This document shows, piece after piece, positions 1 to 6,483 of a stretch of 64,000 nucleotides of DNA. A model generated the notes under the pieces. That model was not told the DNA's origin. It saw only the letters and a program-made list of their open reading frames with translations, and searched no databases. The translations under genes were made by a program, and so were the position numbers. The stretch is from Halomonas sp. Lineage in GTDB: Bacteria; Pseudomonadota; Gammaproteobacteria; Pseudomonadales; Halomonadaceae. Each line of letters begins with the position of its first letter. The first letter of the stretch is position 1. The stretch is from contig NZ_DRFS01000002.1 of assembly GCF_011050415.1 (NCBI RefSeq), positions 1 through 64,000 on the forward strand, read 5' to 3'.

Positions 1-145
1 GTTCAAGATTACGCCACTCGCTGGCTCTGGCATTACAATAACGAGCGCCCTAATATGGGGCTCGGAGGGATTACCCCTCAACAGAAACTGGCCGCTGTGG
101 TCTGAAGTCTACTTTTGAAACCCTCTAAAAATGGGGGGATTACCA
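1..145 (+). mobile_element. 3' end of an IS3-family insertion sequence: transposase OrfB C-terminus (VQDYATRWLWHYNNERPNMGLGGITPQQKLAAVV*) plus right terminal repeat ending ...GGGGGGATTACCA
   Basis: Reading frame open from base 1 to the TGA at about 103-105 gives the typical IS3 integrase C-terminus (YNNERPNMGLGG.TP); the following sequence ends in CA as IS3 termini do. Confidence 0.85.
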
Positions 146-387
146 CGGCAACTACCTAACGGATTCCGCACCCTTATCTTTTCGCCCTTAGTTTCGACAT
201 ACGGGACGCGAGCATTACGCCTTATCGCCATGCCGCTGGTCGGGCTTTGCACTTGCGCTGGTGTAACTGAGCTGTCATCGAGACTTATCAGCAACGGAAC
301 ACGACCATTGAGCTGGTGCACAACGCTTTTAGTGCGAGTTTTATTGACGCCATCTTGTCGCGCATCCTTTAAGTTCCCCAACGTCAT
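109..387 (-). CDS. Hypothetical ORF running into the IS end; probably truncated by the insertion
   Basis: Begins directly downstream of the ABC exporter on the same strand; its last ~12 residues are translated from the IS terminal repeat. No family recognised. Confidence 0.3.
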   Translation of the reverse strand: MTLGNLKDARQDGVNKTRTKSVVHQLNGRVPLLISLDDSSVTPAQVQSPTSGMAIRRNARVPYVETKGEKIRVRNPLGSCRGNPPIFRGFQK

Positions 388-2934: not shown

Positions 2935-3084
2935 TTAGGTCCACGGATCCCGCCAAACAGCATAGGAACCCTCAATAATGGCACCGCCGCCTCCCCCGCG
3001 AGTTGCACTGCTCGCTTTAAAGGTAGATGCCTTTTGACGTAGCACGCTGGGTAGGTGCTTCTTCACGATATTTTTCTTCAACAT
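2935..3084 (-). CDS. Lasso peptide precursor, 49 aa: MLKKNIVKKHLPSVLRQKASTFKASSATRGGGGGAIIEGSYAVWRDPWT
   Basis: Hand translation; AAGGAG ribosome-binding site before ATG. Thr at -2, Gly at core +1, Glu at +9 (9-residue macrolactam geometry). Immediately upstream of the B protein gene. Confidence 0.85.
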   Translation of the reverse strand: MLKKNIVKKHLPSVLRQKASTFKASSATRGGGGGAIIEGSYAVWRDPWT

Positions 3085-3388
3085 GTCTTTCTCCTTTTAA
3101 GGCTTTGTTTCAATTCCGACGTCGGCCTAATGAGGTTATCGGGGATGATAAGACTGCGCACCTGTCCATCTGGATAGTCATATGCTGGCTTACCCCGCAT
3201 TCGAGCAACACTTGCCATATTCTTGTGATTACATGACAGCCACTTGCTAGCTCGACAGCTAATAGATAGTTATCAGGTTCAGTCATGGAGAAGAGCACTA
3301 GCCAGAAGAGTAAATTGAGGCCGGTTAATACACTCTTACCCTACGGCGGTGATCGGTAAAATAAGACAGTAAAGAATAGAAATTGGGG

Positions 3389-4126: not shown

Positions 4127-4258
4127 GTATATACCAGTATCGTTATCGTCATTTTCTGCATTAGAATTAACTTTATTGAGAATGATGGCTACTAACCGAA
4201 TGGATAGGTAGAAACAGCTGGAGTTAACTATAGGTTCAGTTTATAGGAGGTAAGAGCA

Positions 4259-5250: not shown

Positions 5251-6483
5251 CTAGCTCTCCAGAGCTTCAACATCGAACGGCTCAATAGATTTGAACACTC
5301 CCGTCTTGGTCATTTTTCTCCGCAGTTCGAAACGCTCTAGGGTTGCCGGTGGCTCAATGTTGGCCAAGGCCTTGAAATTGATTTCTCGCCACTGAGGCTT
5401 GGTAACCAGGACACTGTACAGATAGCTTTCAGTGGGCTGCCCAGTCCCGGTGTCGAGTGCCGGTACGTAGGCCGATACAAGCGCTAGCTGAACGGTTGGA
5501 AGACGGTGATATATTTCACCGAGTACGCGCATCGCCACGCCATGAGCGTAGTCGCGATACAGAATGCGCCGACGAGTGGCGGCAATTTTTTTGACAGAAA
5601 CTTTCGGTTGTTTAGCGGCTAGGGTGTATTCCACGTCTGGGAAATCATTCTCTTCGGGTAGCTCAATGTCGATAGCGATGGTGCTAGCATCATCTCCGAG
5701 ATCAAAGCTCACGCTCGTCTCCCTGGGCCACGGAATTTCCCCCAGGTGTTCCTCAAGAACATTGGCCATGGCATCAAGATTCGTCAGCACTAACTCGGTT
5801 TCCTGCTCACGCCGTTGCCGCTCCTGCTCGTTAAAGGCCCGCGCTGCCTCCTCCCATTCGCTAAAGGCGCGTACGTATTGTTCCGTCCACCGCTCGTTTT
5901 GTTCTGCTAGCCGACGTTTAGCCGGGGGCCAGATACGGCTCCAGAGTGTTGGCTGAAGAAGGGGCTTGCGTTGGGGTTCGGGTTCGGGAAATGCTCGGCT
6001 CTGAAATACAGGCTTGTCTTGTGGGGATAGCGTATCGCAATGCACTGTCGCCAGCGCCGAGAGGTCGGCGTTCAGCCGATCACATGCTTGTTGGAGCATA
6101 TCGCGCATGCCTTCTCCAGCGTACTTACGAAGTACACGGAGCTCTGTCTCGTCATATGGCTGGCCACCATCGTCAGTGATCACGAGCTCGCCGTCATCTT
6201 GTACACGGACACGCACCACTGCAGAGCTCCCTGCCTTGAGCTGCTGCTCAAGTGCTTTGCCGGGAGAGAGCGCTACCGCCTGGGTGCTCCGTCCTCCGCG
6301 CTTGTTGAGCTTTTCACGGTAGGCTAGGCCGGTACCCGGCAGGCCCACGTTGCCATATACACCGCGACTACTCACGTTTATTTTGGCGCCACTAGGGCCT
6401 ATTGAGGCCCCGATTCCGCTTTTGCTGAGGTTCAGGCTAATGCCTGGGGCAATACGGATACGCCGATTAAATCGAAGTGCCAT
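5251..6483 (-). CDS. DUF4236 domain-containing protein
   Basis: N-terminus RFNRRIRIAPGISLNLSKSGIGASIGPSGAKINVSSRGVYGNVGLPGTGLAYREKL is characteristic of DUF4236. Confidence 0.8.
   Translation of the reverse strand: MALRFNRRIRIAPGISLNLSKSGIGASIGPSGAKINVSSRGVYGNVGLPGTGLAYREKLNKRGGRSTQAVALSPGKALEQQLKAGSSAVVRVRVQDDGELVITDDGGQPYDETELRVLRKYAGEGMRDMLQQACDRLNADLSALATVHCDTLSPQDKPVFQSRAFPEPEPQRKPLLQPTLWSRIWPPAKRRLAEQNERWTEQYVRAFSEWEEAARAFNEQERQRREQETELVLTNLDAMANVLEEHLGEIPWPRETSVSFDLGDDASTIAIDIELPEENDFPDVEYTLAAKQPKVSVKKIAATRRRILYRDYAHGVAMRVLGEIYHRLPTVQLALVSAYVPALDTGTGQPTESYLYSVLVTKPQWREINFKALANIEPPATLERFELRRKMTKTGVFKSIEPFDVEALES

Follow-up and report, generated by a model that had tools for sequence, protein, structure and literature searches.

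The left end of contig C2 of Halomonas sp., analysed as a stretch of 64,000 nucleotides (the window), very probably carries what is left of a lasso peptide operon, ordered lasA-lasB-lasD-lasC, that was quorum-controlled and functional until recently; its present carrier would be an immune, signalling non-producer. An earlier note on this DNA had recognised a 49-aa ORF on the minus strand as a lasso precursor next to a leader peptidase and an ABC exporter, had treated the cluster as functional and had not found a cyclase gene. This interpretation is partly supported: the precursor and its neighbours were confirmed, but lasC does exist and is interrupted by an IS element, and the strain therefore probably makes no lasso peptide. 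Furthermore, a luxI/luxR pair and lux boxes, absent from the earlier note, lie beside lasA. The locus is a lasso cluster by descent and probably not a working one. Its features are listed in Table 1.

Table 1. Features of the lasso peptide locus of Halomonas sp. and predicted precursor cores of related loci (positions refer to the window unless another contig is named)
Feature	Position	Strand	Evidence or remark
lasA, lasso precursor, 49 aa	2935..3084	-	translation; homologues in four halomonad loci and plasmid ring homologues
lasA, predicted leader, 29 aa	2998-3084	-	
lasA, predicted core, 20 residues, GGGGGAIIEGSYAVWRDPWT	2938-2997	-	same core in L050
lasA, stop codon	2935-2937	-	
AAGGAG ribosome-binding site of lasA	3091..3096	-	6 nt before ATG; kept in all four aligned loci
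palindrome CTATCCAGATGGACAG before lasA, lux-box-like	3162..3177	-	imperfect CT-N12-AG; kept in four aligned loci
lux-box-like site CTAACCGAATGGATAG in the luxI-luxR interval	4192..4207	+	near copy of the lasA palindrome; identical in G875
lasB, leader peptidase, B2 domain and probable N-terminal RRE, 232 aa	2124..2822	-	NF033537 lasso_biosyn_B2 E 8.2e-20; PF13471 E 5.7e-17
lasD, ABC exporter and presumed immunity protein, 571 aa	392..2107	-	PF00005, PF00664
lasC 5' part, first 81 codons	145..387	-	48-64% identical to the C N-terminus in relatives
lasC remainder, 443 codons	contig C31, L002:150-1481		second copy of the target-site duplication at 146-149
IS3-type element, right end: end of transposase ORF and terminal repeat ...GGGGGGATTACC	1..144	+	PF13683 rve_3; identical ends at C26 and C31
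ACGG target-site duplication (4 bp) on both sides of the IS	145..148	.	matches ACGG on the C31 side
luxI-type autoinducer synthase (probably acyl-homoserine-lactone), 245 aa	3389..4126	-	PF00765 E 4.5e-10
luxR-type autoinducer-binding regulator, 240 aa	4448..5170	+	PF03472 E 8e-16; PF00196 E 5e-19
Core of L051, GTGGGAIIEGTYAVYRDPWS			
Core of L052, GTGGGAIIEGTYAVYRAPWS			
Core of G875, GSGGGAIIEGTYAVYRDPWT			
Core of Rhizobium leguminosarum, GQGGGAIVEGSYAVYRDLTGPGDDDWCGEGYFVPWCPNTW			boundary set by alignment
Core of E. coli pMS1718-3, GTGGGSIIEGSYTVYRCDGGSVPSRPFGPPFCP			boundary set by alignment
Core of Pantoea pCFSAN047154_3, GNGSGSLVEGRRRVYRCSSSSGIGFSVC			boundary set by alignment
Two lasso precursors of contig C20, MLHMDRKTYEVPSLQELGAMKEITENGSQAFSDTFQGQDGTAFDVGS and MLKTDRKTYEAPMLQELGAMKDITEAGDRPNADTMNGRNGTAWAPGPDS			YxxP-type

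Translation of the ORF gave MLKKNIVKKHLPSVLRQKASTFKASSATRGGGGGAIIEGSYAVWRDPWT, in agreement with the sequence and position proposed before, and the AAGGAG motif that had been claimed as its ribosome-binding site is likewise present. A second copy of lasA was not found elsewhere in the Halomonas sp. genome. At four other halomonad loci, the gene is kept at the same position with approximately 80-88% identity, and in one of these, a Halomonas MAG (L050), the core is identical. Three of the loci (L050 and, from Aidingimonas, L051 and L052) were obtained by a contig scan with the C31 part of LasC, to which they show 87-91% identity, and a survey of the family added the fourth, G875. Precursors with the same ring motif also precede C-B-D genes on plasmids of Rhizobium, E. 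coli and Pantoea. Short ORFs are frequent, and the ORF might be a product of chance or encode an unrelated small protein; but position, sequence and partner genes are all conserved, which refutes this reading and leaves it a vanishingly small probability. Judged by sequence and gene context, the ORF does encode a lasso precursor, and its peptide is uncharacterised.

The nine-residue ring between Gly1 and Glu9, which had been predicted for the core, is well supported as a prediction since the core is conserved and the partners B, C and D are present. Both residues are retained in the five halomonad precursors as well as in those of Rhizobium, E. coli and Pantoea. The halomonad core consensus is GxGGGAIIEG(S/T)YAV(W/Y)RxPW(S/T), with G1, G3-5, AIIEG, YAV, R and PW constant in all five and position 2 free (G, T or S). 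The five ring glycines emphasised in the earlier note are present in the window core but are not a conserved trait, and a pentaglycine as the defining property of the family was ruled out by the relatives, whose ring consensus is G-x-G-G-G-A-I-I-E. Similarly, the Thr at position -2 occurs in the precursors of the window, L050, G875, Rhizobium, E. coli and Pantoea, but it is no invariant of the family, as Ile replaces it in the two Aidingimonas precursors (L051 and L052). For the dehydrated cores, [M+H]+ values of 2030.97 (window and L050), 2051.98 (L051 and G875) and 2007.99 (L052, Aidingimonas halophila DSM 19219) were computed. Core fragments were absent from the open-licence literature searched, which does not prove novelty. 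Neither B nor the cores had a relevant relative in the PDB, and a plasmid search with the precursor alone as query found nothing.

The product of lasB had been described as an RRE-B2 leader peptidase. The B2 half was confirmed by domain matches, with those to NF033537 and PF13471 above their cut-offs (the earlier note had named a B2 match and conservation of the ORF in related loci as checks, and both were found), and the Cys (CLE) and His (SHAW or AHAW) motifs are retained in eight homologues. The RRE half was not confirmed, as LasB matched no RRE model of Pfam or NCBIfam. In an hhalign comparison with stand-alone B1/RRE proteins, a plausible strand segment aligned weakly (probability 7%, p 0.005), and in an AlphaFold model of low confidence (pLDDT 48.5), which is too poor for a fold search, the N-terminus forms three strands and then helices. 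An RRE is described as three N-terminal strands with three helices behind them, and E-B fusions are reported from lasso clusters (PMC7549694); the modelled N-terminus of LasB fits this description but does not prove an RRE. The gene of the ABC exporter LasD follows lasB on the same strand, in line with the earlier note, and LasD is 87-92% identical in the relatives. Pairwise dN/dS values ranged from 0.15 to 0.25 for lasB, from 0.14 to 0.23 for the C31 part of lasC and from 0.07 to 0.12 for lasD across all six halomonad loci, including a further one, G886; those of the short lasA were too noisy to be used. Because the values for lasB and lasC are low, both genes were, by this sequence measure, under purifying selection until recently. 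The lasD values also indicate purifying selection.

The clusters of microcin J25 and capistruin (mcjABCD, capABCD) likewise comprise a precursor, a transglutaminase-like B, an Asn-synthetase-like C and an ABC exporter D, and the capistruin ring also has nine residues (PMC6963729). The halomonad cluster differs from them in the order A-B-D-C, the core GGGGGAIIEGSYAVWRDPWT, the adjoining luxI/luxR genes with a lux box and the interrupted lasC. The same ring motif was detected in uncharacterised loci on the plasmids pMS1718-3 of E. coli (NZ_CP097714.1; GTGGGSIIEGSYTVYR) and pCFSAN047154_3 of Pantoea (NZ_CP034477.1; GNGSGSLVEGRRRVYR), which also possess a fused B as well as C and D, but have longer, Cys-bearing tails, the order A-C-B-D and a B with 27-29% identical amino acids; no lux genes are annotated in the stretches of these plasmids that were examined. 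On pRlBT01d of Rhizobium leguminosarum (NZ_CP125637.1), the core starts with GQGGGAIVEGSYAVYRD, Thr is found at -2, and B and C are 36.5% and 30% identical, respectively; this locus differs by a 40-residue core with two Cys and by the order A-C-B-D. Pandonodin, a class IV lasso peptide with a long tail (PMC13352647), is also a proteobacterial lasso peptide with A, B, C and D genes. Compared by description, the long-tailed plasmid homologues with two Cys may resemble pandonodin, whereas the halomonad core is short and free of Cys.

Beside these comparisons, several precursors came to light on the plasmids. The precursor of the E. coli plasmid (L082, 782-970) is listed as a 'hypothetical protein'; 23 E. 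coli plasmids of the collection carry a relative of lasB, and this lasso peptide may be common but overlooked. In Rhizobium leguminosarum, the long-tailed precursor with two Cys and the same ring family (L060, 2039-2257) is unannotated, and so is the Pantoea agglomerans precursor upstream of the C gene at position 1644 of L081, where C, B and D are annotated.

A search of the genome (34 contigs) with PF00733 detected, right at the beginning of contig C31, an Asn-synthetase-like ORF listed with 449 aa; with this part found, a plain absence of lasC could be discarded. C2 and C31 both start with ends of one IS3-type element, whose transposase contributes its 3' end to positions 1-144 of the window and its 5' end to positions 1-145 of C31; the rve_3 match of the window fragment (E 4e-5) is slightly under the family cut-off as the fragment is short. 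Three right and three left ends of this element are present in the genome, and the bases outside them pair unambiguously through 4-bp duplications (C2/C31-left ACGG, C26/C16 ATAA and C31-right/C24 TCTC). The window frame 387-145 (MTLGNLKDARQ...KIRVRNPLGSCR) starts just past the lasD stop and is continued in phase by the C31 frame. The uninterrupted site was seen in three relatives (L050, L051 and L052), and lasC comprises 524 codons in L050 and L052. Because of the matching duplication, the common frame and the empty site in the relatives, we infer that one IS3-type copy splits lasC after codon 81 and that C2 and C31 are joined through their contig ends. By this reading, the cyclase gene of the cluster is present in this genome but not intact. 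Approximately 1.3 kb past lasC on C31 (L015, 2803-3531), a further LuxR-like regulator was noticed beside a LysE-like exporter gene, both recognised by eye.

As far as the gene structure tells, Halomonas sp. probably makes no lasso peptide and retains an intact exporter. A cluster that is still productive, either through a truncated LasC from a start at or after the IS or through a cyclase acting in trans, appears quite improbable. An open frame does run from a TTG in the IS end into lasC, TTG and GTG codons follow the break, and the SGGxDS motif is encoded beyond it; but LasC, a protein of 524 aa, loses its first 81 residues through the break, and its N-terminal region is conserved to 48-64% in the relatives. 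As for the action in trans, contig C20 (approximately 142000-145700; L001, L021) harbours another lasso cluster that looks complete; its 646-aa cyclase could in principle act on the lasA product, although the C20 precursors are of a different type and B1 and B2 are separate there, versus the fused B here.

The matches of LuxI and LuxR to PF00765, PF03472 and PF00196 are all above the cut-offs. The luxR copies are 69-90% identical at all four related loci, and luxI/luxR take the same place as in the window in L050 and G875 and lie beyond lasC in Aidingimonas. The palindrome (in G875 CTATCCGGACGGTTAG) accompanies lasA in five loci. The pattern CTANCCNNATGGANAG has three occurrences in the 4.7-Mb genome, two of them at lasA and luxI/luxR; as it was derived from these sites themselves, the count is descriptive. 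One and the same set of five genomes, out of 275 of the family, contained luxI (at least 65% identity) and lasB (at least 70%); these are not five independent events. It is likely from these sequence features that lasA is switched on via a LuxI/LuxR-dependent AHL signal. The lux genes might also be neighbours by chance and exert no control over the lasso operon: lux boxes are short and degenerate, the role of the regulator is predicted from sequence, and two lux-box matches in the window alone, with two mismatches allowed, are no rarity (9 of 100 shuffles). The argument for AHL control rests on conservation and placement. Against mere neighbourhood, which seems unlikely, speak the luxI/luxR pair that is linked to the cluster at every one of the five lasA-bearing loci despite the change of side in Aidingimonas, the palindrome that remains with lasA there, and the co-occurrence in the same genomes.

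The control of lasso gene expression has been called poorly understood, and the local regulator of capistruin is listed as unknown (PMC6963729). No described case of a lasso cluster with luxI/luxR, an autoinducer synthase or an IS-broken cyclase gene was found among the open-licence papers listed, which again is no proof of novelty. Next to luxR, the window encodes a DUF4236 protein (5251-6483), and a similar gene lies beside luxR in G875 (L072, 11378-12655), a member of a different genus; the block common to both may extend past luxR.

The gene order A-B-D-C is present in L050, L051, L052 and G875. In G875, lasD and lasC are separated by an IS21-type element with AATC on both sides; by eye, its two ORFs resemble istA/istB, and as read from the sequence it lies in codon 5-6 of lasC. 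G886, a third species, possesses a full-length lasD (87% identical) and only the last part of lasB, so that lasD stands there outside a cluster and next to a decayed lasB end (L080, contig C3, 7326-9330); lasA, lasC or lux genes were not detected within the 18 kb examined. Biosynthesis genes are damaged in three of the six halomonad loci, lasD in none. The exporter gene kept beside damaged biosynthesis genes suggests immune non-producers, and three cases are few.

Such a loss may have been selected, with immune non-producers living beside producers; this would add to the explanation given above and does not compete with it, and we consider it possible while leaning against it. In its favour, different IS elements have entered lasC in two species, IS3-type here and IS21-type in G875, and G886 has retained its exporter gene but only the end of lasB. 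However, the cases are only three, IS elements strike many genes, and D may carry another substrate. Doubtful is also the wider proposal of a lasso peptide with a dedicated AHL circuit whose production genes transposition has removed again and again, whereas the exporter and, in many cases, the signal genes persisted, with immune signalling non-producers across the halomonads as the outcome.

For the remnant of a quorum-controlled operon, the following course is proposed. In intact relatives, LuxI would synthesise an acyl-homoserine lactone, and at high cell density LuxR would bind to the lux boxes before luxI/luxR and before lasA. LasB would cut off the 29-aa leader, LasC would activate Glu9 and link it to Gly1 around the tail, giving the predicted threaded topology, and LasD would export the 20-residue lasso peptide, which is probably antibacterial, and protect the producer. 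In Halomonas sp., with lasC split after codon 81, the precursor could still be synthesised and cleaved, but its ring would not be closed, and the intact exporter and signal genes would leave the strain a probable immune, signalling non-producer.

The lasso precursor of the window is real. Its cluster is ordinary in kind except that the core is uncharacterised, an AHL switch is likely and, in this strain, the cyclase gene is interrupted. The core belongs to an uncharacterised ring family, GxG(G/S)G-A/S-I/L-I/V-E-G, which extends across halomonads, rhizobia and enterobacterial plasmids, and the cluster offers with luxI/luxR a candidate for a local regulator. Because related species hold intact and broken versions of the cluster, the halomonads could serve to test whether production is lost while immunity is kept.
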